A DNA stretch of 64,000 nt. It comes from Demequina pelophila (GTDB taxonomy: Bacteria; Actinomycetota; Actinomycetes; Actinomycetales; Demequinaceae). A model generated the notes under the pieces. It was not told the DNA's origin. It was given only the letters and a program-made list of their open reading frames with translations, and searched no databases. A program made the position numbers and the translations under genes. Below are positions 3,717 through 63,327 of the stretch, in pieces; the first letter of the stretch is position 1, and every line of letters starts with the position of its first letter. Location: positions 1 to 64,000 of the forward strand of contig NZ_BBLY01000004.1 of the NCBI RefSeq assembly GCF_000971175.1. Reading direction: 5' to 3'.

Positions 3717-3785
3717 TCTGGGCGGTGTGCGAGCATCACCCCAGGTCCCGCGCGCATAACGATTCGGTAAGGGCCGGGTCCTAGG

Positions 3786-3831: not shown

Positions 3832-3937
3832 GTCGATGGTGACGCGTGTTGCCAGCGAGCGAGCGCCCCCGGGTCGAGTCCCCAACCGACGGATGCCCGG
3901 GTATCGCAACTCAACGAAGAGGAAGGCGACAACGCTG

Positions 3938-5332: not shown

Positions 5333-5347
5333 GCCGACTGCCTGCCG

Positions 5348-5383
5348 ACCGGCCGGGCGCCGCCACCGCGGAGCCCGGCCGGT
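5348..5383 (+). terminator. intra-operon hairpin between binding protein and permeases
   Basis: A perfect 11-bp stem (ACCGGCCGGGC, 5348-5358; GCCCGGCCGGT, 5373-5383) with a 14-base loop and no T-run after it. In this position it probably stabilises the upstream message or partly attenuates transcription, giving more binding protein than permease. Confidence 0.55.
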
Positions 5384-5419
5384 CCGGCCGTCAGCACCGT
5401 CACTCAAAGGAGAGAGAAG

Positions 5420-7416: not shown

Positions 7417-7451
7417 GTCGCGCGGGCGTCCGCCCGCTCGACGCCCCCGTT

Positions 7452-7492
7452 CGCGAAACGAGGCCGCTCACGCCGAGCGGCCTCGTTTCGCG
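7452..7492 (+). terminator. intrinsic terminator of the sugar importer operon
   Basis: A perfect 17-bp stem (CGCGAAACGAGGCCGCT, 7452-7468, with its complement at 7476-7492) and a 7-base loop. It lies between the convergent importer operon and the unknown gene ending at 7550, so it may serve both strands. Confidence 0.85.
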
Positions 7493-7549
7493 TGCCCGGG
7501 GACGATGCGGTCGCACGGGCCGATGCAGCGGCGGGGGACGATGCGCCCC

Positions 7550-8500
7550 TCACCCCAGGACGGAGAAGACCTCTTCCCAGGGCACGGTGGTGATGCCCGT
7601 GGAGATGCCGGCTGTCAGGGCCGCGACGGCGCGCTTGACGCCAAGCTTGTCGCTGGGGAAGCGCTCGGAGTAGGCCTCGAGCAGCTCGTCCATCGAGCCG
7701 GCCTCGGAGTCGCGGAGGATCTCGCGGACCCGGCCGCCCACGCGGGGGTCGCCCACCTCCTGGCGGACCATGTCCTCGGCGTCGCGGCGCAGGGCCCGGG
7801 AGACGTAGGCGAGCGGGTCGACGCGGACGAAGGTGCGCGCTTCGAGGCAGCGGTCCAGCAGCGCACCGAGGCGGCCGGGCTTGTCGCCCTCGCCCAGGGT
7901 CATGCGGTTGAGCAGCGTCTCGGTCGCCTGCTCGTCGAAGAGATTCTGGGCGTCGTCGTCGCCGGCGATCGCACGGGAGACGGCGGGCACCGCGCGGCGC
8001 ATCGCCTTCTCTGCGTAGGGCTCGAGCCGCATGTGCGCGGCCCAGCGCGCGCCCTTGCCTGCCTCGACGAGCTCGGCGAGGCGGGCGCCGGCGGCGACCC
8101 GAGCGCGCACGGACGCGCCGATCGACGCGGGGACGCCCAGCGCATCGTCCACTCGCTCGCTCAGGCCCGCGCGCACGGTGGTGGTGCCGGAATCGGTGTA
8201 GCCCAGGCCGGCGAGCCGCCAGCCGACGGTGACCTCCTCGCCGGGTGCGAGGGCGAGGACCGTGGGCCCGTCCCAGTCGATGCGGACGGGGAGGTCGTAG
8301 GTGCCGCCCTGGGGGTCGAGGGCCTTGCGGCCCACGTCGACGCGGGGCTCGAGGAACGTCCAGACGGGGAGGGTGACGATGGCGGCATCGGTCGCGGGCT
8401 CGTCCAGCGCGGCGGCGTCGCGGCCGTGGATCGCGGTCTCGAGGTCGGCGCAGAACGCGTCGAGCCAGGCGTGGCGGCGCGCGGTGGTGGCCATCGTCAT
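7550..8500 (-). CDS. conserved protein of unknown function
   Basis: A 316-residue soluble protein beginning MTMATTARRHAWLDAF. ATG 8500 was chosen over the second ATG because GAAGGAG sits about ten bases upstream. I do not recognise a domain. The first 100 residues look beta-rich and hydrophobic (VTLPVWTFLEPRVDVG); the remainder is helical and strongly charged, with several acidic and arginine-rich amphipathic stretches. No membrane segment or signal peptide is seen. It stands alone between a terminator and a divergent gene, so context does not suggest a role. Confidence 0.7.
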   Translation of the reverse strand: MTMATTARRHAWLDAFCADLETAIHGRDAAALDEPATDAAIVTLPVWTFLEPRVDVGRKALDPQGGTYDLPVRIDWDGPTVLALAPGEEVTVGWRLAGLGYTDSGTTTVRAGLSERVDDALGVPASIGASVRARVAAGARLAELVEAGKGARWAAHMRLEPYAEKAMRRAVPAVSRAIAGDDDAQNLFDEQATETLLNRMTLGEGDKPGRLGALLDRCLEARTFVRVDPLAYVSRALRRDAEDMVRQEVGDPRVGGRVREILRDSEAGSMDELLEAYSERFPSDKLGVKRAVAALTAGISTGITTVPWEEVFSVLG

Positions 8501-8682
8501 GGGGCGGAGTCTCCTTCGCTGCACCGGGGCGCGGCTCCGTCCCCCGGGTGGGGCGAAACCACTTCGCGCGCCCGGAGAAGATGCATTGATTGTGGCAACG
8601 TAACCATTGCATTGCGCGGGACGTGAGTCCCTGGCGGCGGCGAGGGTGCGCGCGCCAAAGTAATCGCGTTCGAGTGCCACTG

Positions 8683-8695
8683 GTTGGCGCATGTT
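8683..8695 (+). promoter_or_regulatory. GTTGGCGCATGTT motif, copy 1
   Basis: An exact copy of a 13-bp sequence that also precedes the pilin, adhesin and sortase genes downstream. It ends 51 bases before the start of the unknown gene at 8747. Two GTT triplets are spaced ten bases apart, one helical turn, as in direct-repeat sites of response regulators. Confidence 0.6.
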
Positions 8696-8746
8696 CGATA
8701 GCGAGCCGGTTCGAGCGGCCGACAAACAACAGGGAGAGGGGGCGCC

Positions 8747-9655
8747 ATGGTGGGTGACACCTCGCGTCCGCGCTACTTCAGAGGACCCACCGAGCCCGGC
8801 GATCGACTCGTTCAGCCGGTGGACCTCGCGGCGCAGGAGCGGCGCGCCTCGTTCATCGAGAGTCACACGGGCATGCGTGTGGACCGCGGGGGCGGTCGGC
8901 GGGGCGCCTCACCTCTGTATCTCTCCCCCGTCGTGTCGCTGCCGTTGCCCCAGGCGGGCCGCGGATGGGACGCGTTGCAGCGGACCGGCCGCCGCGTTGC
9001 CTCGACGCTGTGCAGCCCGCTGTACTGGCTGCCCGCGGAGCTCTTCATCGGCGGGGACCCCGAGCGTTGCCGCGACGAGGATGCCTTGCGCGCGGCGCTC
9101 GCCATCCTCCGATCCGACCTCTACGACCCGGTCGACGGTGTGTGGCTCGACGTCCTCGCGCCGCTCGGGATCGATGTCCGTCAGCCCGACGGGCTCGCGC
9201 GCGTGGCGCGCTGGGACGCAGGCGGCCGCGATCTCGCTCTCGACGGGCTGGACCTACGTGCGCACTTCGATGCGATTCCGTGGGCGGCCCAGTCCGCCGC
9301 CGCGCTGCTGCCGCCCATGATCGCCGCGTCGTGGTCGCTCACCGCGCGCGACCTGGGCGGGCGTGTGAGCGCCATGCTGCGCGATGTCGAGGCGCACTCC
9401 ACCGAGTATCTGGTGTCCGCGTGCGAGGCCATCGTGTCCATAGGGCACGAGCGACTGGCCCTGTGCCGCCGCGGCGGACTCGATCGCCACGAATTCTGGA
9501 GGTCCTGCACGCGGCTGCTCGTGGAGATGGGGGACGGCCGGCCGTCACGGTCGCTCGTGGGAGGACTTCTACTATCCCTTGAGGCCGAGCTCGACGAGGT
9601 CGAGCAGACCTACGCGCACGCCATCGTGGACCTCTACGGAGAGATCCCGGCCTGA
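8747..9655 (+). CDS. protein of unknown function, possibly linked to the pilus locus
   Basis: The protein has 302 residues and starts at ATG 8747 behind AGGGAGAGGGG. No domain, signal peptide or clear membrane segment is recognised. Tryptophan-containing helices dominate after residue 60, and the C-terminal third is helical and acidic (SLEAELDEVEQTYAHAIVDLYGE). Its upstream region carries the 13-bp motif shared only with the sortase/pilin genes, so co-regulation is likely. A cytosolic accessory or regulatory role is conceivable but unproven. Confidence 0.65.
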   Translation: MVGDTSRPRYFRGPTEPGDRLVQPVDLAAQERRASFIESHTGMRVDRGGGRRGASPLYLSPVVSLPLPQAGRGWDALQRTGRRVASTLCSPLYWLPAELFIGGDPERCRDEDALRAALAILRSDLYDPVDGVWLDVLAPLGIDVRQPDGLARVARWDAGGRDLALDGLDLRAHFDAIPWAAQSAAALLPPMIAASWSLTARDLGGRVSAMLRDVEAHSTEYLVSACEAIVSIGHERLALCRRGGLDRHEFWRSCTRLLVEMGDGRPSRSLVGGLLLSLEAELDEVEQTYAHAIVDLYGEIPA

Positions 9656-9759
9656 CGTTGTCCGCCCGGGCCCTTCGCTGAGCCCATGTCAGACGGGGCG
9701 GCTCTGGCCGGGCCCGACTGGGCCAGGGCGGCTCGGGCGGTACTCCCGACCAGGCCCTG

Positions 9760-10689
9760 TCAGGCCGCGTCGGCCTCGTCGTCGCAACGGCGGCGCCACC
9801 GCACGTAGAAGATCAGCCCGCCCCACAGGATCACGACCGTCAGCACGCCCCACCAGGGCAGTGACGCCACGGCCTGGGAGGTCAGCGCCACGGTGGACTC
9901 GGCGGCGGGGGCCACGTCCTCCGGGGTGGGCACGCGGTGGCCGGTCACCGCGAGCCGATGCGAGTTGATGCCGATGGGCGTGCACGTGATGAGCGTGAGG
10001 AGGTCCTGGCCCTCCTGCGGGACGATCACGGAGCCGTCGGTGGGCTCCACCACCCGGACGTCGTCGACCTCGTAGGTGAGCGTCTCTCCCAGCACGTCGA
10101 TGAGCATCTGGTCGCCCACGCCGATCGCGTCGAGTCGCGTGAACAGCTGCGCGTCCGGGAGTCCCCGGTGGCCGCTGAGCACCGTGCGGTTGCCCTCGCC
10201 GCCCACGGGCAGGTGGGTGCCGAACAGGTGGCCCACGCCGCGCTGCAGCGAGTCCTCGCCGGTGCCGTGGAAGATCGGCAGGTCCACCTCGATGGCCGGG
10301 ATGCGCAGGCGCGCCATGGTCTGGTCGGTGGCGAGCAGGGACCGGTACTCCGCCATGTCCTCCTGCAGTTCCGCGTCCACCGGGGCAGCCGAGGCGAACG
10401 GGTCCTCGAGCTGCGTGAGCTCCAGGTCCGCGTTGTACTCCCGCGCGCGCTCGAGCTCGGCCGCGCGGTCCACCTCGGGCATGTGCGCGATGGTCTCCGC
10501 GTATCCCTCGACGGCCCCGGCCTCGCGGTGCGCGTTCCACATCGACGCGACCGTGGGGTACGCGAGCGTCGCGACGCCGATGACCGCCAGCATCACCACC
10601 AGCACCTTGCGCCCGCGAGGCCAGCGCGCGCGACGGCGCGCCGCCGCGTCGGCGGTCTCAGGGGACGGGGTGCTCACCTTCAACAACAT
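9760..10689 (-). CDS. class C sortase (pilin polymerase) 1
   Basis: This 309-residue enzyme should covalently join pilin subunits. After a basic N-terminus there is a membrane segment (about residues 25-45, KVLVVMLAVIGVATLAYP). An EDPFASA sequence (Asp-Pro-Phe) matches the lid that covers the active site in class C sortases. The catalytic His is in VLSGHRGLP, the Cys in TLITCTPIGINSHRL, and the Arg follows in the same strand; a C-terminal membrane segment (PWWGVLTVVILWGGLIFYV) is also typical of class C. The ATG at 10689 lies inside a copy of the 13-bp motif; GTG 10677 is an alternative start. It diverges from the class E sortase gene. Confidence 0.88.
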   Translation of the reverse strand: MLLKVSTPSPETADAAARRRARWPRGRKVLVVMLAVIGVATLAYPTVASMWNAHREAGAVEGYAETIAHMPEVDRAAELERAREYNADLELTQLEDPFASAAPVDAELQEDMAEYRSLLATDQTMARLRIPAIEVDLPIFHGTGEDSLQRGVGHLFGTHLPVGGEGNRTVLSGHRGLPDAQLFTRLDAIGVGDQMLIDVLGETLTYEVDDVRVVEPTDGSVIVPQEGQDLLTLITCTPIGINSHRLAVTGHRVPTPEDVAPAAESTVALTSQAVASLPWWGVLTVVILWGGLIFYVRWRRRCDDEADAA

Positions 10690-10697
10690 GCGCCAAC
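10685..10697 (-). promoter_or_regulatory. GTTGGCGCATGTT motif, copy 2
   Basis: An exact copy on the minus strand overlapping the proposed start codon of class C sortase 1, in the 103-bp divergent region with the class E sortase gene. Binding here would directly block initiation at this gene, or the true start lies slightly downstream. Confidence 0.55.
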
Positions 10698-10792
10698 CGG
10701 CCGATGCGCGGGTCCGGCGGGCGCGGCCCGCGCCACCGCGCGGGGCCGGGTTAGCATGCCTGGACCACCCCAGCCCCTCCCCAAGGACGCCC

Positions 10793-11584
10793 ATGACCGC
10801 TCCGGTGCCTCCCGCATCGTCCCCGCGCACGCGGAGGTCGGCGGGCCGAGCCCTCGCGGGACTTGTGGGGGAGCTGCTCATGATCGGTGGGGCGTTCGCC
10901 ATCGGGTTCGTCGTGTGGCAGATGTGGTGGACCGACTTCCAGGGCGAGCGCGATCAGCTCGAGGCGCTCGCGGACCTGCGCGGGGGCGCCATCGCGGCCG
11001 CCGCGGCGCCCGACGCCGTCGCTCCGCCCCAGGACGGCGCCGCGCCCACGGACGACTTCGCCGGCGACTTCGCGCAGGGCGACCCGATCGCGGTCCTGCA
11101 CGTCCCGGTCTTCGGGCGCGAGGACGGCACGGACTGGCAGCGCGGCGTCTACGAGGGCGTGAGCTGGGCGGACGTGCTCAACACGCTGGGCGTGGGCCAC
11201 TACCCGGACACCCAGATGCCGGGCGAGCCGGGCAACTTCGGGGTCGCCGCGCATCGGACTACGTACGGCAAGCCGTTCGCGAACATCGACTGGCTGGTCG
11301 AGGGCGACCCGATCGTCGTCGAGTCCGAGAGGTACTGGTACGTCTACGAGGTGTCGGACGTCCAGATCCTGCTCCCGTGGGAGACGGAGGCGCTCGCGCC
11401 CGTCCCCGGGGACCGGACGTGGCAGGAGAAGCCGAGCGCGAGCATCGTCACCCTGACCTCGTGCCACCCCAAGACGTTCTCGACGCACCGCTACGTGGTC
11501 CACGGCGAGCTGCAGTACTGGGCTCTCAAGTCCGAAGGCGTCCCCGCGGAGCTCGCGGGCCTCGCACCCCAGGAGGCGGCATGA
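10793..11584 (+). CDS. class E sortase
   Basis: A 263-residue transpeptidase. A single membrane anchor lies near residues 28-48 (ELLMIGGAFAIGFVVWQMWW), followed by a low-complexity linker and the sortase domain. The catalytic His is in VAAHRTTYG, the Cys in the class E hallmark TLTSCHP, and the Arg in THRYVVHG. Class E enzymes are housekeeping sortases of high-GC actinobacteria that prefer LAxTG-like signals, so the FAMTG pilin encoded nearby is a plausible substrate. It overlaps the following small gene by four bases. The start is ATG 10793 after AAGGACG. Confidence 0.9.
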   Translation: MTAPVPPASSPRTRRSAGRALAGLVGELLMIGGAFAIGFVVWQMWWTDFQGERDQLEALADLRGGAIAAAAAPDAVAPPQDGAAPTDDFAGDFAQGDPIAVLHVPVFGREDGTDWQRGVYEGVSWADVLNTLGVGHYPDTQMPGEPGNFGVAAHRTTYGKPFANIDWLVEGDPIVVESERYWYVYEVSDVQILLPWETEALAPVPGDRTWQEKPSASIVTLTSCHPKTFSTHRYVVHGELQYWALKSEGVPAELAGLAPQEAA

Positions 11585-11754
11585 TCTTCCCGGCCATCTG
11601 GCGCCTGCTGCCCGGACCCCGCTGGGTCAAGGTGCTGCTGGTGCTGCTCCTGATCCTCGCCCTGTTCGCGGCGTGCTTCCGCTGGGTCTACCCGGCGATC
11701 GCCCCGTGGATCGAGGTCATCTCCGGCGACCCGCTGTTCGAGCTCGAGTCCTAG
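11581..11754 (+). CDS. small membrane protein accompanying class E sortase
   Basis: The protein has 57 residues and one membrane segment (VKVLLVLLLILALFAACF). It starts at ATG 11581 inside the sortase stop (ATGA), so it is translationally coupled. Similar short proteins commonly follow class E sortase genes in actinobacteria; the function is unknown. Its stop codon overlaps the stop of the convergent class C sortase 2 (11751-11754). Confidence 0.75.
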   Translation: MIFPAIWRLLPGPRWVKVLLVLLLILALFAACFRWVYPAIAPWIEVISGDPLFELES

Positions 11755-12710
11755 CCCCGGCGGTCGCGGCGCCGGCGGCGCAGCAGCAGGATCAGCATGA
11801 GGAGCATCCACGCGCCCACGAGCGCGCCCACGGCCCACCAGGGGAGCGTGGTCACGGCGTTGTCCACGATGGACGCGGTGGAGGTGGCGGGGGCGGCGTC
11901 CTCGGCGACGGTGGGGATCCGGTGGCCGGTGACGATCAGGCGGTGGGTGTTGATGCCGATCGGCGTGCAGGTGACCAGGCTGAGCAGGTCCTGGCCCTCG
12001 ACGGCGTCGAGCAGCTCGCCGTCCTCGGGCAGCACTGTCTGGGTGCCGTCGACCTCGTAGGTGAAGGTCTCGCCCAGGACGTCGACGTAGATCTTGTCGC
12101 CGGGGACGATGCGGTCCACATGGGTGAAGAGCATCGCGTCCGGCAGGCCGCGGTGGCCGGTGAGGACCGCGCGCGTGCCCTCGCCTCCCACGGGCAGGTG
12201 GGTGCCGAAAAGGTGGCCCACGCCGCGCTGGAGCGCGTCCTCGCCGGAGCCGTGGTAGATGGGCAGGTCGACGCCGATCGAGGGGATGCGGATGCGCGCC
12301 ATGGCGTCGGTGATGGCGAGCACGCCGCGGTACTCGTCCATGCGGGCCTGGGTCTCGGGGTCGGCGGCGGTGCCGACGGAGCTGAAGGGGTCCGCCATCG
12401 TCATCGGCGGCAGGGCGGCGTTGTAGTCGTGGGCGCGCTGGAGCTCGGCGGCGCGCTCGGCGGCGTCGGTGTTCTCGACCGCGTCCGCGTAGCCGGCGAC
12501 GGCCGTGGACTGGCGGTAGGAGTTCCACATCGACGCGATGGTGGGGTACGCAAGGGTGCCGATCCCGACCAGGATCAGGACGGCGACCAGGATGCCGCGG
12601 ACGGGGAGGCGGCGCTTCGCGGGGGACGATGCGGTGGCGGCCCGAGCGGCCGGCGCGCCGGCGTCAGTGGCGGGCGCAGCATCGTTCGTGGGGACGGGGG
12701 TGGGGGCCAT
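11751..12710 (-). CDS. class C sortase (pilin polymerase) 2
   Basis: This 319-residue paralogue of sortase 1 starts at ATG 12710. It has a Pro/Ala-rich N-terminal tail, a membrane segment (GILVAVLILVGIGTLAYP), an Asp-Pro-Phe lid (MADPFSSVG), catalytic His in VLTGHRGLP, Cys in SLVTCTPIGINTHRL, and a C-terminal membrane segment followed by an Arg-rich tail. It lies 82 bases downstream of the LPMTG pilin and is read in the same direction, so this pilin is its likely substrate. A strong hairpin between the two genes probably lowers its expression relative to the pilin. Confidence 0.9.
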   Translation of the reverse strand: MAPTPVPTNDAAPATDAGAPAARAATASSPAKRRLPVRGILVAVLILVGIGTLAYPTIASMWNSYRQSTAVAGYADAVENTDAAERAAELQRAHDYNAALPPMTMADPFSSVGTAADPETQARMDEYRGVLAITDAMARIRIPSIGVDLPIYHGSGEDALQRGVGHLFGTHLPVGGEGTRAVLTGHRGLPDAMLFTHVDRIVPGDKIYVDVLGETFTYEVDGTQTVLPEDGELLDAVEGQDLLSLVTCTPIGINTHRLIVTGHRIPTVAEDAAPATSTASIVDNAVTTLPWWAVGALVGAWMLLMLILLLRRRRRDRRG

Positions 12711-53919: not shown

Positions 53920-54153
53920 ATGGCAATCGTTCGAGTGAGCACGACCCTTCCCGAAGAGGACTTCCGGTGGATGCAGCACTACGCCGCTACCCATGGCCGC
54001 AAGTCCACCGTGGTCTTCCACGAGGCTGTCGCGGATTACCGCAGGAAGCAGGAGGAGGCGGAGCTCGTCGAGCAGCTCGCCGAGGCGCATCGCGAGTGGC
54101 GCGAGGACGGCGAGCAGGAGGCCTGGGAAGCCTCCGAAGGTGACGGAGCGTGA
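53920..54153 (+). CDS. antitoxin of a MazEF-like pair
   Basis: A 77-residue protein: the N-terminal strand-helix pattern IVRVSTTLPEEDFRWMQHYAATHGRKSTVVFHEAVADYRRK is ribbon-helix-helix-like, and the acidic tail (EWREDGEQEAWEASEGDGA) should wrap the toxin. The transcript is probably leaderless. It overlaps the toxin gene by four bases. Confidence 0.75.
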   Translation: MAIVRVSTTLPEEDFRWMQHYAATHGRKSTVVFHEAVADYRRKQEEAELVEQLAEAHREWREDGEQEAWEASEGDGA

Positions 54154-54497
54154 GCCGCGGCTCCATCTGGCGCGCCGATCTTGACCCGGTCGTCGGCCAT
54201 GAAGCCAACAAGGCGCGCCTGGTCATGGTGGTCGGCAGAGACGCAGCCGCACGGCAGGCGATCGCGAACGACGGCATGGTGACAGTGGTGCCGCTGACGT
54301 CGAAACGGCTTGACCGACTGTACGGCTTCCACGTCCTGGTGCCGGCTTCGGATGCAGGCATCCCTGTCGACTCGAAGGCGCAGGCCGAGCAAGTACGCAC
54401 CGTCTCGGTACGACGCCTGATCACACAGGTCGGTCAAGCTCCGGCCCACGTCACGGAGGCCGTCGACAATGCTCTGAGGTTCTACCTCGGGCTCTGA
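54150..54497 (+). CDS. MazF/PemK-like endoribonuclease toxin
   Basis: A 115-residue protein with the PemK/MazF fold marks: RGSIWRADLDPVVGHEANKARLVMVVGRD at the N-terminus, MVTVVPLTSK, and VRTVSVRRLITQVG, where the conserved Thr/Ser contacts RNA. It cleaves mRNA and is neutralised by the preceding gene product. The GTG start overlaps the antitoxin stop. It sits between two transposase remnants just outside the integrated element. Confidence 0.88.
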   Translation: MSRGSIWRADLDPVVGHEANKARLVMVVGRDAAARQAIANDGMVTVVPLTSKRLDRLYGFHVLVPASDAGIPVDSKAQAEQVRTVSVRRLITQVGQAPAHVTEAVDNALRFYLGL

Positions 54498-54859: not shown

Positions 54860-54895
54860 GTGGGCCCCGTGGGGCTCGAACCCACGACCTACGGA
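54860..54895. repeat. attL, displaced 3' fragment of tRNA-Lys
   Basis: Thirty-six bases identical to 63254-63289, from the anticodon-stem 3' strand to one base past the discriminator. The 5' half of a tRNA is missing here, so this is not a functional tRNA. Confidence 0.92.
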
Positions 54896-54921
54896 CTCTA
54901 AACCGGTGTTGATCCTGAGTA

Positions 54922-55056
54922 TACGTCGAGCGCGCGGATCGCGACTATTTCGCCTCGTACTAGGCGTGTTGACCTTTCGTCGCTTTACTCTCGTCGACTA
55001 GGTTTCGCGGCCAAAACGTCGAGTAAACGTCGAGTAGGTCGACGTTTTCGTCGAGT
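54922..55056. promoter_or_regulatory. integrase arm-type sites, left end
   Basis: ACGTCGAG-based repeats: 54922-54930, AAAACGTCGAGT (55013-55024), AAACGTCGAGT (55025-55035), an inverted copy GTCGACGTTTT (55038-55048) and CGTCGAGT (55049-55056). The same word occurs at the right end. The stretch 54896-55283 holds no gene that I can support. Confidence 0.7.
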
Positions 55057-55283
55057 GCTCGCCGGCGGCCGGCCGGCTGATCGTGGTGGCCCTCGAGGCC
55101 GATGCGTCGTCATGGCGCGAGGTTGGCACGCCAACCTGACGCGATCGGGCCTCGAGTGGCCGGCGAGCAGTGGGGCGGCGCGCGTTTGTGCGGCGATCGC
55201 GGCCTGCGCAAGCTTGGCAGGGCGGGCCGGCGGGGACTACGTCGAGTCTGCGCACGTTCTCGAGCAGCACGAGGGTCGGCGCG

Positions 55284-55440
55284 CTAGTCGTCGTCACGGT
55301 CGGCGGCATCGAGCAGTCGGGCGCGCCAACCTCGAGGCGGCGGCCACGGCACGCCCCACGCCTCGAGGGTCGCCCTCGTGTACCCGCCGGCGGGAGTGCG
55401 CGCCGTCGATCTCGTCGCGGGTCGGTATGCCTCGAGCCTA
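55284..55440 (-). pseudogene. phage-type ORF fragment with GVPWPPPRGW end
   Basis: The frame ends GGYTRATLEAWGVPWPPP then RGWRARLLDAADRDDD. A WGVPWPPPxGW C-terminus is common in small proteins of actinobacteriophages and their relatives. The sequence upstream in this frame has no start codon after the hairpin at 55524-55568, so the gene looks truncated, or starts at a rare codon. Confidence 0.35.
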
Positions 55441-55523
55441 GGCAGCGGCGGCCGGCGGCGAGCGCGCGACGCCCGAGCCGGCCGATCCCGGCGAGCGGCC
55501 GCCGGCGAGCGCCTGAGCGCACG

Positions 55524-55568
55524 AACGGCGCGCCCTCGACCTCGTCTCAGGGGCGCGCCGTTCGTCGT
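55524..55568 (-). terminator. terminator of the left element operon
   Basis: A 15-bp perfect stem (ACGAACGGCGCGCCC and GGGCGCGCCGTTCGT) with a 15-base loop, just after the last gene of the leftward operon. The arm coordinates are accurate to a few bases. Confidence 0.75.
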
Positions 55569-55623
55569 CTCAGCGGGCGGCCTGCGCGCTCCCGCGACAC
55601 GCGCAGGGGCGGCGGTCGCGGCC

Positions 55624-56025
55624 TCACGTGGCGGCCCATGCGTACGCGTCGGCCTTGTGCGTCGCGCGCCACCTATCGGCGGCCGCGCCGTGCGTCTCAT
55701 GCCAGGCGATCGCGGCGGCGGCGTGCGCCTCGTGCCAGGCGAGGCCGTCGGCGATTGCACGAGGCGAGGCGAGCGTCGCGCCGCCGGCGAGCCTCGAGGC
55801 GCGCGAGCCGGCGAGCACGAGTGCTGGCATGAAACCGCTCATGGGCGTCGGGTGCTGCTCGAGGTCGATCGCTTGCACGTGCCACGTGTCGCCGCCGGCG
55901 TAGCCGACGAGCACGTCGCCGGCGCTCGAGCCGGTGCAGACGCGCAGCAGGGGCCGGCCGGCGAGGCCGGCGACGGCGCTCACGCCGGGCGAGTGCTCGG
56001 CGACGCGCGGGCAGCGATCAGGCAC
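55624..56025 (-). CDS. element protein of unknown function, 133 residues
   Basis: The frame starts with GTG (MPDRCPRVAEHSPGV...). A hydrophobic first half (VSAVAGLAGRPLLRVCTGSSAGDVLVGY) is followed by an Ala/His/Trp-rich part with repeated WHEAH/WHETH/WRATH units. No family is recognised. It overlaps the preceding frame by eight bases and is followed by a terminator, so it is probably the last gene of a coupled operon. Confidence 0.5.
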   Translation of the reverse strand: MPDRCPRVAEHSPGVSAVAGLAGRPLLRVCTGSSAGDVLVGYAGGDTWHVQAIDLEQHPTPMSGFMPALVLAGSRASRLAGGATLASPRAIADGLAWHEAHAAAAIAWHETHGAAADRWRATHKADAYAWAAT

Positions 56026-56299
56026 GGCGCGGCCTCGTGAGCGCCCGCCGACGAGGCGTGCCGCAAGTCACGGCCCGCCGGCGGGGCGATTGAGAGCGAT
56101 CCAGCGAGGCCGACGCGAGGCCGGCGATCGCGGTCGCGATCGGGTCGAATCGGGCGGCATGGAGCGCGAGAGACTCCACGCGACGATCGCGGATTTCTTC
56201 CGCAGAAGAGAGCGGGTGAGAGAAGATGGAAAGCGGGAGGGGTCTTCCTTGGTCTCCCGAGAAAACGCGGGCGGGGGCGTCGCGCCGGCTAGCCGACAT
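56018..56299 (-). CDS. possible small element protein, 93 residues
   Basis: It is supported mainly by gene overlap: it starts 11 bases inside the end of the 305-residue gene and ends eight bases inside the next. The composition (Arg/Ala/Ser-rich, VESLALHAARFDPIATAIAG in the middle) is not decisive. A later GTG start near 56180 is possible. No homology is recognised. Confidence 0.35.
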   Translation of the reverse strand: MSASRRDAPARVFSGDQGRPLPLSIFSHPLSSAEEIRDRRVESLALHAARFDPIATAIAGLASASLDRSQSPRRRAVTCGTPRRRALTRPRRA

Positions 56300-57206
56300 G
56301 GTCGAACCGTCCGAACGTACGAACGTACGAGCTCGACGTCGAGCCGGCTCGACGCTCGTCGCGCTGCTGCTGCTCGCGCTGCTTCGCCCGCCATGCTTCG
56401 ACCTCGGCCTCGCGCTCGGCGGGGCGACGCTCACGCGTGGCACGGGTCGCAGCGCCGTACGCGCATGTCTCGAGCGGCGCTAGTGATACCTCGAGCACAG
56501 GTGCAGCGCCGGCCCGGTAGATCGACCCGGTAGGGCCGGCGTCGGCCGATCGCTCGCCGATCGTGGTGATGCTCGAGCCGATCGCGCCGACGTCGATCGC
56601 GCGCAGCAGCGCGCGCAGCCTCGGCCCAACGATCGTGAGGTTGATCCAGGTGCGCAAGTGACCTGGCTCGACGTCGAACACTGTCACGTGCCCGATTGGC
56701 TGCCGGCGATCGTGTCGCCAGTAGGCCGGCAGGTCGTGCAGCGCGTTGACGAGCGGGGTGCCCTTGTGCGTCACCATGCGCGGGCCGGGGTCGATCCCGG
56801 TGCGCACGGCCTCGGCGGCGCGGTGCGCGATCGGCTCAGGCTCGAACACGTGACGCGGGACCGGCGTGCACCTGACCGTGGTCGAGTCGTGCGACCAGCG
56901 GGTGTGACCGGGCCAGCCGAGCAGCCTCAGGCGATCGTGCAAGCGCTGCGCAGCGTAGTGCTCGACGTCGCCGCGCAGCTCGAGTGCCTCACGCTGCCAG
57001 GCCGGCGCGGTCGGGTCGATCGACCAGGCGGCGACGAGCATGTCGACGGCCTCAGCCGGCTCGAGGCCGGCCGGCAACAGTGCGGCCGTGCGCTCGATCG
57101 CGTACAGCGCGCGCAGCGTGCCGCCGTCGAGGCCGGCGCATACCGTGGCGCGGCTCGTCTCGTCGAGGCGGTGCCAGGCGTCGCCGGCGGCCTCGATCGC
57201 ACTCAT
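56289..57206 (-). CDS. element protein of unknown function, 305 residues
   Basis: A soluble protein beginning MSAIEAAGDAWHRLDETSRATV. It has a helical first 100 residues, a beta-rich middle (HVTVFDVEPGHLRTWINLTIVGPRLRALL) and a Glu/Gln/Arg-rich C-terminal helix (EAEVEAWRAKQREQQQRDERR). No catalytic motif is recognised. It overlaps the preceding gene by four bases (ATGA). It is the largest cargo candidate of the element. Confidence 0.65.
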   Translation of the reverse strand: MSAIEAAGDAWHRLDETSRATVCAGLDGGTLRALYAIERTAALLPAGLEPAEAVDMLVAAWSIDPTAPAWQREALELRGDVEHYAAQRLHDRLRLLGWPGHTRWSHDSTTVRCTPVPRHVFEPEPIAHRAAEAVRTGIDPGPRMVTHKGTPLVNALHDLPAYWRHDRRQPIGHVTVFDVEPGHLRTWINLTIVGPRLRALLRAIDVGAIGSSITTIGERSADAGPTGSIYRAGAAPVLEVSLAPLETCAYGAATRATRERRPAEREAEVEAWRAKQREQQQRDERRAGSTSSSYVRTFGRFDHVG

Positions 57207-57508
57207 GCGCCGGCCTCGTCGAGCTCGAGGACAACGCGCAGCCGGTCGAGCCGGCCGCGCCGCTCGACGGCCGTGCGCAGCGCGAGGCGCACGAGCGCAC
57301 GGGACGGCAGGCCGCCACGCCGGGCCGCGCTGCGCGCCTCGTGCGCGGCGGCCTCGATCGCTGCCAGGTGAGCGCGCAGCGTCGCGCGGCTCGTCGGCTC
57401 AGGGACGGCGAGCAGCCGGTCGACGTCCGACACGAGTGCGACGAGCGCCTCGAGCGCCCGGTCGTCTCGAGCGCCGGCCTCGGCGGGATGGATCGCGGTA
57501 CGCGGCAT
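57203..57508 (-). CDS. small helical element protein, 101 residues
   Basis: The frame starts MPRTAIHPAEAGARDDRALEAL. It is almost entirely predicted helix with many Arg and Ala (ATLRAHLAAIEAAAHEARSAARRGG), suggesting a coiled-coil or DNA-binding accessory protein. It is the first gene of the leftward operon next to the candidate origin and is coupled to the 305-residue gene. Confidence 0.55.
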   Translation of the reverse strand: MPRTAIHPAEAGARDDRALEALVALVSDVDRLLAVPEPTSRATLRAHLAAIEAAAHEARSAARRGGLPSRALVRLALRTAVERRGRLDRLRVVLELDEAGA

Positions 57509-57510
57509 GA

Positions 57511-58012
57511 CGGCGGCCTCTCTCGGATCGCGTGCAGTGACGACGATGCGGGGGCGCGCTAGCGGTCGCGGCGGGGGCACCTATGCCGCCCACGGTACGT
57601 CGCCATGGTCTCCCGCGCCAGAGGCAAGCCGGCTACGCCGACGAGCACGACGCCGGGCTGCCCGACTGCTCGCCTGCTCAGGCGACCACAGACTGCGGGA
57701 GCAGGCTCAGCAACTCGAGCAGTACGGCGGTCGTCGCCTACCAAGGCGACCCGACGCGCGACCGTTCCACGGTCGCCGTGGTCGACGTAGGAGACCACAA
57801 ACAAAATAGGAGTAGTGGGCGGTGGGCTATCCCCTTAAGGGGTCCGCCCGCCAGCCTGCCTGCCCGCCCATCCGCCCACTGCGCTATATCCCCTGCTAAA
57901 TGTCGTGTAGCGGTCGCCCGCCCATCCGCCCATCTTAAAGGTAATGGGCAGGTAAAATCGGGGCCGTTTTCTGTTGCGTAAATACCCTTTCGGCCCGTCG
58001 CCGCCGGGCATG
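57511..58012. other. candidate replication origin of the element
   Basis: A gene-free 0.5-kb stretch between two leftward operons. It has a 17-bp direct repeat GCCCGCCCATCCGCCCA (57862-57878 and 57916-57932), inverted related words (GTGGGCGGTGGGC near 57816, TGGGCAGG near 57945), a 12-bp palindrome CCCCTTAAGGGG (57831-57842), and unusually AT-rich patches (57930-57990). Iterons plus AT-rich DNA beside primase and RepA-like genes are typical of origins. Confidence 0.55.
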
Positions 58013-58050
58013 GATCGACCCCCGTGACGGCTCGGTCACGGGGGTCGATC
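58013..58050 (-). terminator. terminator of the Prim-Pol operon
   Basis: A perfect 16-bp stem (58013-58028 and 58035-58050) with a 6-base loop, 90 bases after the last gene of the operon. Confidence 0.8.
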
Positions 58051-58140
58051 GCGGGGTCGGTCAGGCTGCTCGGCTCGGCCAATCGGGGTGCAGGATTGCG
58101 GCCCCTGCGATGTCCTCGGCGCGCTCGTGCCGTGCGCGGT

Positions 58141-58653
58141 TCATGGCCGGTACTCGCATCCGTGGGCGACGTCGTGCACGTCGGTGAGGCGGTCGAGCAC
58201 GTGGTGCGCGTATGCGAGGGCGCGGGCGAGCGGCTGCGTTGCGTCGCCGGCGTCGCGCAGGCCGTCGACGACGAGCCTGATGAGGGCGAGCGCGTGGTCG
58301 ACGTTCGCCGGCGTCGCGTCGAATCCGTCGATCAGTCGTGCCCGCTGCTGCGCGAGGTCGAAGAATGCGACCGGGTCGGCGTCGTGACGGAGCTGCTCGG
58401 CCTCGAGCCATTCAAGGCCGGTACGGGTGATCCTGTGGCGTGTGACGCCGGCGACGTCGAGGCGGTCGACGAGGTTGAGGTCGAGCAGCGTGTGCAGTTC
58501 GTCGTCGATGCCTGTGAGGTCGTCGCCGAGCGTGGCCTCGAGGCACGCCCAGGTGCACGGGTCGCCGGCCGCAGTCGGGCCGTCTCCGTGGTCGGCGTGT
58601 GACAGGTGGTCGGCGAGCGTTCTGAGCATGGTGCGCGGTACGGGTCGAATCAT
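58141..58653 (-). CDS. element protein with winged-helix-like features
   Basis: A 170-residue protein starting MIRPVPRTMLRTLADHL behind GAGGAAC. The middle (DELHTLLDLNLVDRLDVAGVTRHRITRTGLEWLEAEQL) has the helix-wing look of a winged-helix DNA-binding domain; the C-terminal part is helical (ARALAYAHHVLDRLTDVHDV). It follows the RepA-like gene by 23 bases, so it is in the replication operon and may regulate it. Confidence 0.6.
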   Translation of the reverse strand: MIRPVPRTMLRTLADHLSHADHGDGPTAAGDPCTWACLEATLGDDLTGIDDELHTLLDLNLVDRLDVAGVTRHRITRTGLEWLEAEQLRHDADPVAFFDLAQQRARLIDGFDATPANVDHALALIRLVVDGLRDAGDATQPLARALAYAHHVLDRLTDVHDVAHGCEYRP

Positions 58654-58676
58654 GGTGAGGTTCCTCTCGTGGTGGG

Positions 58677-60065
58677 TCAGTCCTCGCCGGCGTCGTGGGC
58701 GGCGAGGCGTGCCCGGCCGAGGCTCGTGAGCGCATACAACTTGGTACGGCCGGCGCGGCGGCCCTCGTCGTCGACGAGGCGCGCGTCGACCGCGTCGCGG
58801 CGCGCTGCCAGGTACGCCGCGCCGACGTCGCCGTTCGGCTCGACGTTGAGCGAACGCCGGGCGAGTTCCTTGTTCGTGAGCGGGCCGACGGCGTCGGCGA
58901 GCGTGCGCAGGATCTTGTCGACATTGCCCTCGAGGCCGGCGTCGGGCAGCGGTGCGGACGCGGGCCGCGAGTCGACGTCGTGCCATGTGGCGCGGTGCAC
59001 GGCAAGCGACGTGACGGGCCGGTCAAGGTAGTCGCGCAGTTCCGTCTCGACGACGGCAAACTCGACGTCGATCGTCCAACGATCGCCCTGCGGGTGATCC
59101 CGAAACTTCTCGGCCTTGATCGTCACGCGCCGAGCGTCGCCGTCGCGCGTGACCTCGAGCAGCGCGTCGGGCGTGTCGCGAATCGCCGTCGACCCGCGAA
59201 ACGTGCCGTTGCGGTTCGCGTGGTGCACGGTCCACGCGGCGCGACGTGCGGCCTTGAACCGCTCGAGGGTCGCGAGAACGGTCGTCATCTGACTCGAGTT
59301 CTCGTCGGCTGCGCCGCGCACGCGGGCGAGCGTATCGACGACGACGAGGCCGACGTCGTGCTCGTCGGCGACCTCGAGCAGCGCGTCGACGTCGGGACCG
59401 TCCGCGTAGAAGTCCGGCGCGATCGTCTCGACGAGCAGGTACCCGTCGAGCAGCTCGGCCGTCACCGAGTTCGCCGTGCACCATGCGAGCACGCGCGCGA
59501 GCAGACTGCGCGAGCCTTCGGTCGTCACGTACAGCACGGGCCGCCGCTCAGGTACGTCGAACAGGCCGAGCGCTTTCCGGCCGGTCGCGAGGGCGAGCAT
59601 CACGGCGAGCACAATGAACGACTTGAACGACCCGCCGGCACCTGCCACGACGGCCGTCTGATCGGGATACACGAGCCGGTCGACGACCGGCGTCACGGGC
59701 GTCGCGAACCGCTCGCGCAACGTGGCGAAGTCGAACAGGCCGTCGGCCATGCGCTCGGCCTGCACGCCGCCGGCCTGCACCCGCTCGAGCGCCTCGGCGA
59801 CCTGTTGCGCGGCCGACTTGACGAGCGCGGCCGTCACAGGGTCGGCGTTGAACTGTGCGCCGGGCGTGTTGAGCCAATGACGTACCTCGGTCGGTATGCC
59901 GAGCCGGTCGATCGCGAGCCGGCGCGCGGCCGCGTGTGGCGACTCGAGGTCGTCGTCGCCGGGATCAGGCTCACGCTCCTCGAGGGCCGCCGCGACCTCG
60001 TCGGGGGTCGCCGGCGGGTGAATCTGCTCGAGGCCGGCGTCGCCGTCGTTGTTGTTGCTGGTCAT
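58677..60065 (-). CDS. RepA-like hexameric ATPase / helicase (AAA_25 type)
   Basis: A 462-residue RecA-fold ATPase. Walker A is GAGGSFKS (142-149), Walker B VVVD (241-244), and the TTEGSRSLLARV and VHHANRNGTFRGSTAIRDTPDALLEV segments match RepA/DnaB-like replicative helicases of plasmids and islands. A C-terminal winged-helix part (KILRTLADAVGPLTNKELARRSLNV) probably binds the origin. The start ATG overlaps the Prim-Pol stop. It should unwind the element origin. Confidence 0.85.
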   Translation of the reverse strand: MTSNNNDGDAGLEQIHPPATPDEVAAALEEREPDPGDDDLESPHAAARRLAIDRLGIPTEVRHWLNTPGAQFNADPVTAALVKSAAQQVAEALERVQAGGVQAERMADGLFDFATLRERFATPVTPVVDRLVYPDQTAVVAGAGGSFKSFIVLAVMLALATGRKALGLFDVPERRPVLYVTTEGSRSLLARVLAWCTANSVTAELLDGYLLVETIAPDFYADGPDVDALLEVADEHDVGLVVVDTLARVRGAADENSSQMTTVLATLERFKAARRAAWTVHHANRNGTFRGSTAIRDTPDALLEVTRDGDARRVTIKAEKFRDHPQGDRWTIDVEFAVVETELRDYLDRPVTSLAVHRATWHDVDSRPASAPLPDAGLEGNVDKILRTLADAVGPLTNKELARRSLNVEPNGDVGAAYLAARRDAVDARLVDDEGRRAGRTKLYALTSLGRARLAAHDAGED

Positions 60066-60877
60066 GCTGCGCGTCCTCCTGTGGTGCGTCGTGCTGAGGC
60101 GAGCGTCGTGTCGACCTCGCGCTGCTCGAGGCCGGCGGCGAGGCCGGCGCTCGTGAGTCGTGCGACCTCGCCGGCGGTGGGGTACATGGGCCATAGGCGG
60201 CACGCGGCCCAGTACAGCGCCGCGTTCCGGTTGCCTTCGACGGCCCGGGCGACATGCCGGCACAGGCCGTCGACCTTGCGGTCGCGTGCGTTGCCGTCGA
60301 GCCTCGTCGGCAGTTCGCGGGGCTGCGCCGGCGGCGGCTGCTCGAGCCGACGCTCAGCTCGTCGAGGTAGCGCGACGACGGGCTGCGCCGGGTCGAGCCA
60401 CCTGTACGGGTCGCCCGTGAGCGGGTGAGGCGACGGCGGCGCGATCACGTACCCGTGAACCTTCACGTCGACGCCGGGCACGCCGAGCGACTTCTCGAGC
60501 CTCGTGCCCGTGAGTGGCTGCCACGGCTCAGGCGGCCGCATGTACCAGGCGTGCATGCCGCCGTCGCCTCGGCCTGACAGGCTCGCCCACGTGCGCGGCA
60601 GGCTGCCGAGCGCCTGACTCAACGCCGCGAACGTGCCGCCGTTGCGCGGGTCGACGTCGAGCACGACGTGCGTCGGCGGGATCACGAGGCCGACGAGCGC
60701 CGCCGGCCAACGCTGCCACCATTCCGCGATCGTCGCGAGGTCGGTCGTCGCATCCTTGTGCCCGTGGCGAAGGTACGGCGCTTTCGCGTCGTCGCCGGCC
60801 TCGCGGCACGGGTGCACGAGCCAGCCGGCAGCGGCGTATTCGAACGCGGCGTCGAGCAGGTCGGACGGGCGCGTCAT
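60062..60877 (-). CDS. bifunctional DNA primase/polymerase (Prim-Pol, AEP type)
   Basis: This 271-residue archaeo-eukaryotic-type primase begins MTRPSDLLDAAFEYAAAGWLVHP. The metal-binding DVDPRNGG (74-81) and SGRGDGGMHAWY (101-112) are the Prim-Pol hallmarks. The C-terminal GNRNAALYWAACRLWPM is a primase-associated helical motif. Together with the RepA-like ATPase it provides element replication. It is coupled to that gene by a four-base overlap. Confidence 0.9.
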   Translation of the reverse strand: MTRPSDLLDAAFEYAAAGWLVHPCREAGDDAKAPYLRHGHKDATTDLATIAEWWQRWPAALVGLVIPPTHVVLDVDPRNGGTFAALSQALGSLPRTWASLSGRGDGGMHAWYMRPPEPWQPLTGTRLEKSLGVPGVDVKVHGYVIAPPSPHPLTGDPYRWLDPAQPVVALPRRAERRLEQPPPAQPRELPTRLDGNARDRKVDGLCRHVARAVEGNRNAALYWAACRLWPMYPTAGEVARLTSAGLAAGLEQREVDTTLASARRTTGGRAA

Positions 60878-61037
60878 GACGGGCGACCGTGGTGATCGGG
60901 TACCGTACCGAGTGCAGCGACCGCGTACAGGCTGTTCGACTGCCGTCCTACGGGATTCGACTCGACGATCGGCGTCCAAACCTCTCGAGTCTCGCCCCTG
61001 CCGGCCTCGCCCGGCGGGGGCGTTCCTGTGTCCGGCC

Positions 61038-61379
61038 TCATGCGACGGCCACGCCGTGACGCTCGAGCACGGCGATCGCGGCCGAGTTGCCTGCGCGCGC
61101 GGCGTCGATCGTCTTGTACGACACGACCGCGACCTGCTCGTCGATCCACGCGGCGACGTCGTCACGGCGGTATCGAACGTTGCGCCCGATGCGCAGCGAC
61201 GCCGGGCCGTTCTCGCGGGTGCTGCGCCACTTGTAGAGGGTCGGCACGGCGATACCCGTCTCGACCGCGACCTGTTCGATCGTCATGAGTTCCGGCCACG
61301 CGTGGCGCGGCGTGCCAAGCGCCGGCTCGGGCCTAGGGTCGAGTTCGACGTCGGCGACTGCCGTAGGTGAGAGGGTCAT
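61038..61379 (-). CDS. AlpA/excisionase-like helix-turn-helix protein
   Basis: A 113-residue protein with a MerR/AlpA-type domain (MTIEQVAVETGIAVPTLYKWRSTRENGPASLRIGRNVRYRRDDVAAWIDEQ, about residues 32-85). It is the first leftward gene, diverging from the XRE repressor across a 113-bp switch region. In satellites such proteins activate excision or the replication operon. The gap 60878-61037 to Prim-Pol shows no gene. Confidence 0.85.
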   Translation of the reverse strand: MTLSPTAVADVELDPRPEPALGTPRHAWPELMTIEQVAVETGIAVPTLYKWRSTRENGPASLRIGRNVRYRRDDVAAWIDEQVAVVSYKTIDAARAGNSAAIAVLERHGVAVA

Positions 61380-61383
61380 TGGC

Positions 61384-61461
61384 CTAGTCCGTTCTGCCTG
61401 ATCGACAGTCGCGATCAGGCGAGTCGGACTATACGCCTAGTGGGCGGCGGTGTGCTAGTCC
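61384..61461. promoter_or_regulatory. genetic-switch region between alpA-like and XRE genes
   Basis: Three copies of CTAGTCC or its reverse: 61384-61390, GGACTA at 61426-61431, and 61455-61461. An inverted repeat CCTGATCG/CGATCAGG lies between the first two. Likely operators for the XRE protein. TACCGT (61481-61486) stands six bases before the XRE GTG start (leaderless). Confidence 0.6.
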
Positions 61462-61492
61462 TTTTCGCCTGCGTGTCGGATACCGTGGCGGG

Positions 61493-62026
61493 GTGACTGA
61501 GGCGACGGGCGAGCAGTGGGGGCGGCGATTCGAGGCAGGCGTCGGTGCGCGCATTCGTGCGCTGCGCGAGGCGCGCGGCCTCTCGACGACCGCGCTCGCC
61601 GACGGCATGACGCGCCTCGGCGTGCCTGTGAATCAGTCGACGATGTCGAAGTACGAACGCGGCGTCATCGGGATCGGCCTCGCGCAGCTCACGGCGGCGG
61701 CCGTGGTGCTCGAAACGTCGCCGGCGGTGCTGCTCGTCGACCTCGAGGCCGACGAGGTCGAAGTCGCGCCGGGCCGGTTCGCCGGCGTGGTCGACGCGGT
61801 CGAATGGTGGGCGGGCCGGCAGACGTTGCCGGCGGCCGCGTACTCGCTCGAGCATGCCGTCGGGCCGCTCGTGCTGCTGCGTCAACGTGCCGAACTGCTC
61901 GCGGTCGCGGTGCGTCTCGCCGGCGTCAACGACGAGGTTGCGGACGCGGCTCAGGCGCACGTGCCCAAGGTCGACGCACAACTCGCGGCGCACAGGTGGC
62001 AGCCGGCGGTCGGCGACGATGCCTAG
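61493..62026 (+). CDS. XRE-family repressor (element master regulator)
   Basis: A 177-residue protein with an N-terminal helix-turn-helix (GARIRALREARGLSTTALADGMTRLGVPVNQSTMSKYERGVIGIGLAQLTAAA) and an all-helical C-terminal part for dimerisation. It is transcribed away from the alpA-pri-rep operon and overlaps integrase by eight bases, as Stl-like repressors do in phage-inducible islands. No peptidase signature is seen, so induction would require a partner protein rather than RecA self-cleavage. Confidence 0.85.
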   Translation: MTEATGEQWGRRFEAGVGARIRALREARGLSTTALADGMTRLGVPVNQSTMSKYERGVIGIGLAQLTAAAVVLETSPAVLLVDLEADEVEVAPGRFAGVVDAVEWWAGRQTLPAAAYSLEHAVGPLVLLRQRAELLAVAVRLAGVNDEVADAAQAHVPKVDAQLAAHRWQPAVGDDA

Positions 62027-63170
62027 GCCGCCGCTGCCGGTCGGTGGTTGGGGTCGGATCACGACGACGAGCGACGCCGGCGAGCATGTCGCGGTGGCCC
62101 GGTTCCGCGACCACGACGGGCGTACGCGGGTCGTGACGGCGTCGGGCCGGTCGCGATCGGCTGCCGAGGCCGAGCTGCTGCGCCGGCTGCGCGAGCGGTC
62201 GCGCGCCGGCGGGCGCGACGTGTCCTCGAGCACGAGGGTCGACGAACTCGCGCGCGTGTGGCTCGCCGAGGTCGACGAGTCCGATCGCGCGCACTCGACG
62301 ATCGTGAGGTACCGGCTCGCGGTGCGCCGGCACGTCGTGCCCAGGCTCGGCGGCCTGCGCGTGTCGGAGGTCACGACAGCGCGCGTCGACCGGGCGCTGC
62401 GCGACATTGCCGACGACGTCGGGCCGGCGACGGCGCGCCTCGCGCGCACGTGCCTGTCGAACATGTTCGGACTCGCGGCCCGGCACGACGCGATCGTCGC
62501 GAACCCGGTACGCGAGGCGAGGACGATCGCGCCGACGCGGGCCGAGCCTCGAGCACTCGACGCCGACGAGGTCCGTGAGCTGCGCGCAGCGGTGCGCGCC
62601 GACGACTACGCGGTCGCCTGCGACCTGCCGCTGCTCGTCGATCTGCTGCTCGCGACGGGCTGCCGGGTCGGCGAGGTGCTCGCGCTGCGCTGGTCCGACG
62701 TCGACCTCGAGGTCGGGCACGTGACGATCGACGGGACGGTCGTGCGAACTGCCGGCGGCCTCGTGCGGCAGGAGCGCACCAAAGGCGGCCGCGCGCGCGT
62801 CCTCGTGCTGCCGCCGCGCATCGTCGCGACGCTGCTCGAGCGCCGGGTCGACGGGCTGCCTTCGCCCGTGATCCTGCCGGCCGTGACGATGGGGTACCGC
62901 GAAGTCACGACGGTCAACAAGCAATGGCGATCGTTCCGTCGACGCGACGCCGAGCGCGAGGTGGCCGCCGGCAGGCCGGCGCGGTTCGACGACCTCAAGT
63001 TGCACACGCTGCGCAAGACGGTCGCGACGCGCCTCGAGCGCGACGGCGGCCTCGAGGCCGCTGCCGAGCAGTTGGGGCACGCCGGCGTCGCGGTCACGGC
63101 GAGGCACTACGTCGAGCGCGCGGTGCTCGCGGCCGATCAGTCGGCCGTGCTCGACACGCTGCTCGAGTAG
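62019..63170 (+). CDS. int: tyrosine integrase
   Basis: This 383-residue site-specific recombinase has an N-terminal arm-binding part, a SAM-like core-binding domain (about residues 72-165) and a catalytic domain with Arg216 (ATGCRVGEVL), Lys255 (ERTKGGR), His329-x-x-Arg332 (LHTLRKT), His354 (LGHAG) and Tyr364 (ARHYVER), all present. It ends 83 bases before the att core in tRNA-Lys. ATG 62019 gives MPRPPLPVGGWG. It integrates and, with the AlpA-like factor, probably excises the element. Confidence 0.95.
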   Translation: MPRPPLPVGGWGRITTTSDAGEHVAVARFRDHDGRTRVVTASGRSRSAAEAELLRRLRERSRAGGRDVSSSTRVDELARVWLAEVDESDRAHSTIVRYRLAVRRHVVPRLGGLRVSEVTTARVDRALRDIADDVGPATARLARTCLSNMFGLAARHDAIVANPVREARTIAPTRAEPRALDADEVRELRAAVRADDYAVACDLPLLVDLLLATGCRVGEVLALRWSDVDLEVGHVTIDGTVVRTAGGLVRQERTKGGRARVLVLPPRIVATLLERRVDGLPSPVILPAVTMGYREVTTVNKQWRSFRRRDAEREVAAGRPARFDDLKLHTLRKTVATRLERDGGLEAAAEQLGHAGVAVTARHYVERAVLAADQSAVLDTLLE

Positions 63171-63173
63171 GCG

Positions 63174-63196
63174 AAAACGTCGAGTTTCCGTCGAGT
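63174..63196. promoter_or_regulatory. integrase arm-type sites, right end
   Basis: AAAACGTCGAGT (63174-63185) and CCGTCGAGT (63188-63196) between the integrase stop and the att core, matching the repeats near the left end. Confidence 0.7.
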
Positions 63197-63253
63197 TCGA
63201 CCTCGCGAACCTCAAGGCGCTTCGAACCAACCGCCTATTTACCAGGGGTGATA

Positions 63254-63289
63254 GTGGGCCCCGTGGGGCTCGAACCCACGACCTACGGA
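63254..63289. repeat. attR core within tRNA-Lys
   Basis: A 36-bp core identical to 54860-54895. It covers the tRNA from the anticodon stem to one base beyond the 3' end, so integration restores a complete tRNA. Confidence 0.92.
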
Positions 63290-63327
63290 TTAAAAGTCCG
63301 CTGCTCTACCAACTGAGCTAGAGGCCC
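63255..63327 (-). tRNA. tRNA-Lys (TTT), element target
   Basis: A 73-nt cloverleaf on the minus strand with acceptor GGGCCTC / GGGGCCC, discriminator A, D-loop AGTTGGTAGA, anticodon loop CTTTTAA (anticodon TTT) and T-loop TTCGAGC. The 3' half is the att core of the adjoining element. The 5' half overlaps the end of the VanZ-like frame. Confidence 0.96.

Follow-up and report, generated by a model that had tools for sequence, protein, structure and literature searches.

The window analysed here, a stretch of 64,000 nucleotides from contig NZ_BBLY01000004.1 of Demequina pelophila, harbors an insert of 8,394 bp between two attachment (att) copies in the 3' end of a tRNA-Lys(TTT) gene. With moderate confidence, this element is regarded as an intact minimal phage-derived island that is probably mobilised by a helper phage; most likely it is a small satellite of phages or closely analogous to one. 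This view builds on features that can be read from the DNA, namely anatomy, att sites, arm-site pattern, an operator-like palindrome, gene families, and relatives. The open reading frames (ORFs) of the window were annotated by Pfam and PHROGs; NCBIfam and PADLOC were also used.

Boundaries and gene modules

An exact 36-bp direct repeat at 54860-54895 and 63254-63289, with a spacing of 8,394 bp, borders the element; by our own estimate, the chance of such a pair at the local base composition is about 1e-10. The full tRNA is present only at the right copy, the left one being a bare 3' fragment. Insertion has left the tRNA gene (63254-63327, minus strand) intact: position 63289 marks the end of the att repeat and not of the tRNA, which runs on to 63327. 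An Rfam scan gave no RNA match besides this tRNA. The integration, regulation, and replication features are as follows:

54860..54895, no strand: attL, 36-bp copy of the tRNA-Lys 3' end
55013..55056, plus strand: putative left arm-type repeats of the integrase, AAAACGTCGAGTAAACGTCGAGT and TTTTCGTCGAGT, 11-bp step
57790..58050, no strand: candidate replication origin with GC minimum, CCGCCCATCCGCCCA pair, and hairpin
58677-60065, minus strand: RepA-like AAA_25 ATPase/helicase, 462 aa (AAA_25 1.9e-28)
60062-60877, minus strand: Prim-Pol (AEP) primase-polymerase, 271 aa (PF09250 1.1e-30)
61038-61379, minus strand: AlpA-like HTH_17 regulator/excisionase, 113 aa (HTH_17 1.8e-10; phrog_66 excisionase/regulator 3.7e-10)
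61385..61431, no strand: operator-like inverted repeat of 47 bp between the divergent AlpA and XRE genes (16/20 paired)
61493-62026, plus strand: XRE repressor-like protein, 177 aa (HTH_31 2e-8)
62019-63170, plus strand: tyrosine integrase (Int), 383 aa (PF00589 7.6e-19; phrog_1 3.5e-56)
63174..63196, plus strand: putative right arm-type repeats of the integrase, AAAACGTCGAGTTTCCGTCGAGT, 11-bp step
63254..63289, no strand: attR, 36 bp common with attL, inside the intact tRNA-Lys
63254..63327, minus strand: tRNA-Lys(TTT), integration target

The core genes are uninterrupted and split by strand, with XRE and the integrase on the plus strand and AlpA, Prim-Pol, and the RepA-like ATPase on the minus strand. 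The XRE stop and the integrase start share exactly 8 nt (ATGCCTAG). Both ends of the element carry paired repeats. On the left, direct repeats AAAACGTCGAGTAAACGTCGAGT lie at 55013-55035 with an 11-bp step, and the 64 kb contain three exact copies of the core AACGTCGAGT, all of them within the element-end repeats. The ends of two relatives described below (L062 and L089) show a similar pattern built on CGGTGGGT. These repeats probably serve as arm-type sites of the integrase. The inverted repeat at 61385-61431 is placed as an operator would be, and none of 1000 shuffles matched its pairing (16/20).

The putative origin is an AT-rich repeat region (57790-58050) with a local GC minimum of 0.52 near 57.88-58.0 kb, two exact copies of CCGCCCATCCGCCCA 54 bp apart, and a nearby hairpin with 16-bp arms at about 58013-58050. 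The count of the repeat pattern is weakly above chance (3 found versus 0.74 expected; at least 3 in 6 of 100 shuffles). Scans of the called ORFs by Pfam, PHROGs, and NCBIfam revealed no structural/capsid, terminase, relaxase, or FtsK gene in the element. An earlier reading of the same DNA, the original prediction, is borne out on these points: an island of about 8.4 kb between 36-bp att repeats in tRNA-Lys, integrase and XRE diverging from AlpA, Prim-Pol, and a RepA-like protein, and no capsid, terminase, or conjugation gene.

Relatives of the element

Genes for tRNA-Lys were located across 47 genomes of the family. Att-bounded inserts at this site are found in three other congeners, spanning 7,123 bp in genome G028 (locus L062), 7,355 bp in G038 (L060), and 3,795 bp in G034 (L061). 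All tRNA-Lys inserts revealed by repeats in this non-exhaustive survey of the family are small, and among the TerL matches listed for the family genomes (phrog_2 only, non-exhaustive) none lies near tRNA-Lys. L062 shares the layout of the window element, with identities of 57% for Int, 38% for XRE, and 41% for AlpA, and by sequence comparison is a true sister island. Its non-core space is filled by Drt3a (3487-4968, 5e-79) and Drt3b (4943-6991, 4e-137), a DRT3 pair according to PADLOC. Judging from such cargo, tRNA-Lys looks like a defence hotspot in the genus. The following relatives, near and far, are referred to in the text:

L062, G028:C4:1206000-1219000, 3144-10304: sister island in the same tRNA-Lys, 38-bp att, 7,123 bp
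L061 (G034), 3013-6874: tRNA-Lys insert with a ThsB-type TIR protein and a PIN_8 protein
L060 (G038), 4366-11765: tRNA-Lys insert with a Fic/SocA pair
L160, G038:C10:8000-27000: second relative in G038, tRNA-Thr
L079: 8,863 bp with att repeats, tRNA-Arg, same module, Type ISP restriction enzyme
L089 (Arthrobacter cheniae), 1830-11842: 9,973 bp with att repeats, tRNA-Arg, same module, TerS (phrog_1496 1.4e-18)
L096: 9,648 bp with att repeats, tRNA-Met, two GmrSD genes, AlpA co-directional, no XRE seen
L218, G163:C10:97000-115500, about 1797-11832: 9,995 bp, tRNA-Lys(TTT), 41-bp att

Scanning the genome_contigs set with two integrases yielded 44 actinobacterial loci. The exact 8-nt overlap of XRE and Int recurs in 13 loci besides the window (L062, L160, L077, L078, L079, L081, L082, L083, L084, L088, L089, L090, and L121); other overlaps measure 11 nt in L086 and 1 nt in L110 and L218. 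Two of these loci resemble prophages, encoding TerL (L082) or a tape measure protein (L083). Arthrobacter phage Andrew (L165) likewise combines a repressor gene (7637-8002) with an integrase gene (7995-9188) in an 8-nt overlap, with helix-turn-helix (HTH) genes opposite. Prophages of actinobacteria and compact islands both contain this module. L089 carries TerS, and no capsid gene was found in it. L218, which came from a wider search of the order, encodes Int, XRE, AlpA, a replication initiation protein, HNH, TerL (5e-97), portal (8e-112), and major head protein (5e-43), with further weak matches to scaffold, protease, and head-tail proteins; a tail gene was not found. By its gene content, the anatomy of L218 is like that of capsid-forming phage-inducible chromosomal islands (cf-PICIs), and its 1-nt overlap marks it as a looser relative.

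In the integrase tree, whose midpoint root serves for drawing only, the window groups with L062 (100/99), then with L160 and L077 (97/85), and then with L078 and L079 (93/87); Andrew, L121, and L122 fall outside this clade. Integrase kinship was not accepted as proof that the element is a satellite, because the integrase superfamily is shared by prophages and by AICE-like elements (resembling actinomycete integrative and conjugative elements). In the AICE-like relatives L211, L213, L220, and L221, AlpA and then Int follow on one strand, preceded by a large conserved protein, taken for Rep, and a membrane protein, taken for an FtsK-type one; both assignments were made by visual inspection and not from profiles.

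Several minor observations concern these loci. In L160, the gene after AlpA (about 6.7-8.5 kb) resembles a broken AEP primase by eye, and L214 appears, also by eye, to carry GmrSD-type cargo genes. Two Arthrobacter-type relatives encode a zinc-finger-like 'HGG' protein (L081, 5443-6033; L088, 6046-6642), which in L081 matches phrog_3678 (1.4e-48), a family of unknown function, and which is possibly a packaging protein.

Comparison with named element classes

Phage-inducible chromosomal islands (PICIs), both SaPIs and those of Gram-negative bacteria, resemble the window element in their integrase, divergent master regulator, AlpA, primase/rep block, specific att site, and lack of structural genes. 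When the published membership criteria are applied (PMC6092414), the organisation of integrase, master regulator, and replication genes agrees, yet a temperate phage shows such an order too; phage structural and lytic genes are absent from the called ORFs (Pfam/PHROGs). In contrast, the element measures 8.4 kb (8,394 bp) versus about 12-15 kb, and PICI-exclusive genes for TerS or interference, cpm and ppi included, were not recognised by Pfam, PHROGs, NCBIfam, or PADLOC. TerS is missing in some bona fide PICIs as well (PMC6092414). A further criterion is an att site that prophages never use, and the family survey above bears on it. The satellite reading of the original prediction holds as far as a compact tRNA element with divergent modules and att-bounded relatives of 7-10 kb is concerned, some of these with packaging or capsid genes (L089, L218), but not as far as the PICI definition goes. 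Its statement that the order int-stl/xis-pri-rep defines PICIs was too strong, as the XRE-Int/HTH layout of Andrew illustrates.

Phage-inducible chromosomal minimalist islands (PICMIs) share with the element a minimal set of int, alpA, and prim, the overlap of int with another gene, a hotspot for defence genes, and the lack of TerS and capsid remodelling genes (PMC10803314). They adjoin fis in Vibrionaceae, whereas the window element occupies tRNA-Lys in Actinomycetota and encodes an XRE repressor and a RepA ATPase. Likeness to cf-PICIs lies with L218, a capsid-coding 10-kb element at tRNA-Lys(TTT) with a related module and no recognised tail gene; in the window element, capsid, portal, and terminase genes are all missing. 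P4-like elements, defined by psu, sid, and delta (PMC8628076), agree in size (about 10 kb), integrase, alpA, and primase-helicase functions. They differ in that the window element shows no psu, sid, or delta match (Pfam/PHROGs) and encodes Prim-Pol and RepA as separate genes. Nor is it an intact prophage, as terminase, portal, capsid, tail, and lysis genes are missing (Pfam/PHROGs) and att bounds the element.

AICEs such as pSAM2 likewise occupy tRNA genes of actinobacteria and encode Int, excisionase, and Rep/Prim-Pol, and to this extent resemble the window element. The latter differs in the lack of an FtsK/TraB match (Pfam, PHROGs, NCBIfam) and in its opposite module layout. On account of size, TerS/interference, psu/sid, capsid, and FtsK, the element thus lies outside the named families and cannot be filed as PICI, P4-like, PICMI, cf-PICI, or AICE. 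It may nevertheless work like a satellite.

Proposed mechanism and competing explanations

In the proposed model, the base is a lysogeny module of temperate-actinophage type, with XRE translationally coupled to a tRNA-targeting Int and AlpA opposing, which would have been joined to the element's own Prim-Pol/RepA genes and a few accessory ORFs. XRE bound to the palindrome, which lies between the two diverging promoters, would keep the element silent until some trigger relieves the repression, most probably infection by a phage. AlpA and Int would then excise an 8.39-kb circle via att recombination, using the paired arm sites, and Prim-Pol/RepA would amplify it from the AT-rich repeat region. 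The DNA would be packaged by a helper phage and re-integrate into the tRNA-Lys of a new host, where accessory genes would be of benefit, probably against other phages, like DRT3 in L062. Silencing, excision, and replication are predictions, and phage induction and packaging constitute the weakest-supported step of the model. In PICMIs, int, alpA, primase, and defence cargo suffice without TerS or capsid genes, and the helper phage packages concatemers (PMC10803314). By analogy, the window element could manage with a similarly small set.

Searches of Pfam, PHROGs, NCBIfam, and PADLOC left four minus-strand ORFs of the element without a significant match:

55624-56025: ORF, 133 aa
56289-57206: orphan ORF, 305 aa
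57203-57508: ORF, about 101 aa
58141-58653: ORF, 170 aa, no match at all

The winged-helix label once given to the 170-aa product is unsupported by these scans. Packaging and interference functions had been expected in the unknown genes; this lacks support as well, because the non-core space of sister islands holds defence cargo (DRT3 in L062).

Several observations weigh against a phage satellite. Packaging, capsid-remodelling, and interference genes are not recognisable in the element by family scans including PADLOC. For the 305-aa protein, no relative turned up in viral_contigs, genome_contigs, or 396 genomes of the order. Among viral contigs, the RepA-like protein has no relative and AlpA a single weak one, and phage records contain relatives of the replication proteins at no more than about 25-36% identity. 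Prophages and AICE-like elements use the same integrase superfamily, so that kinship says nothing on transfer. Finally, no resident prophage was seen in the host genome with two TerL profiles, phrog_2 (marginal matches only, in large ORFs) and phrog_9; a helper would therefore probably come from outside.

The strongest competitor, unlikely in our view, is an autonomous integrative plasmid-like or AICE-derived island whose transfer genes were lost or never present and which relies for its spread on generalised transduction or on conjugation functions supplied in trans. Integrative plasmids also carry Prim-Pol and a RepA ATPase, weak RepA relatives are indeed found on plasmids, related integrases serve AICE-like elements, and beyond the lysogeny module the element has no phage-specific gene. 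Against this, the 8-nt XRE-Int overlap with divergent AlpA is a phage-type architecture, whereas the AICE-like relatives show co-directional AlpA-Int and a large FtsK-type membrane protein (by eye); relaxase, FtsK, and other conjugation genes were not found (Pfam, PHROGs, NCBIfam). It is less probable still that a decayed prophage is stranded in the chromosome with its lysogeny and replication ends only. Temperate Arthrobacter phages do have a homologous lysogeny module, the integrase of Andrew being about 40% identical, and the left 2.5 kb are partly without convincing genes. However, core ORFs, att, and arm sites are intact, and independent att-bounded relatives of similar size occupy different tRNAs with differing cargo. 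The integrase clade of the window, L062, L160, and L077-L079 stands apart from phage integrases (93/87), and Andrew (Andrewvirus), a 38.8-kb phage equipped with tail and lysis genes as well as RecET, has RecE/RecT among the genes that take the place of Prim-Pol/RepA. A domesticated defence island, with relict recombination genes and with selection for its anti-phage cargo, has very little to recommend it: congener islands at tRNA-Lys do carry DRT3 (L062), ThsB-type TIR (L061), and Fic/SocA (L060), but the cargo in the window has no PADLOC match, and its integration and replication genes look intact.

Returning to the phage-derived island, we tentatively raise the possibility, doubtful as it is, of an undescribed actinobacterial lineage of minimal satellites, which would combine an XRE-Int (8-nt)/AlpA module common with temperate actinophages, interchangeable replication cassettes, and an exchangeable slot for anti-phage cargo; the 305-, 133-, and 101-aa orphans would then represent a new system for defence or helper exploitation. 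According to a 2023 survey of actinobacterial prophages, many small elements are supposed to be satellites, with validation lagging (PMC10023795). The locus and its relatives provide a concrete set with a signature testable by polymerase chain reaction, i.e. an XRE/Int overlap of the ATGNCTAG type, divergent AlpA, tRNA att, and swapped cargo. Through these loci, temperate phages, satellite-like elements that form capsids, and islands carrying defence genes are connected by one regulatory and integration module.

Further observations concern the left end and the orphan protein. The AF2 model of the 305-aa protein is unusable (pLDDT 42). A long GC-rich inverted repeat (CGAACGGCGCGCCC / GGGCGCGCCGTTCG; 55520..55567, no strand) occupies a stretch without a convincing gene and could be a regulatory or packaging signal. 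Directly outside attL, at 53920-54497, lies a MazE-like/MazF gene pair (PemK, 8e-24).

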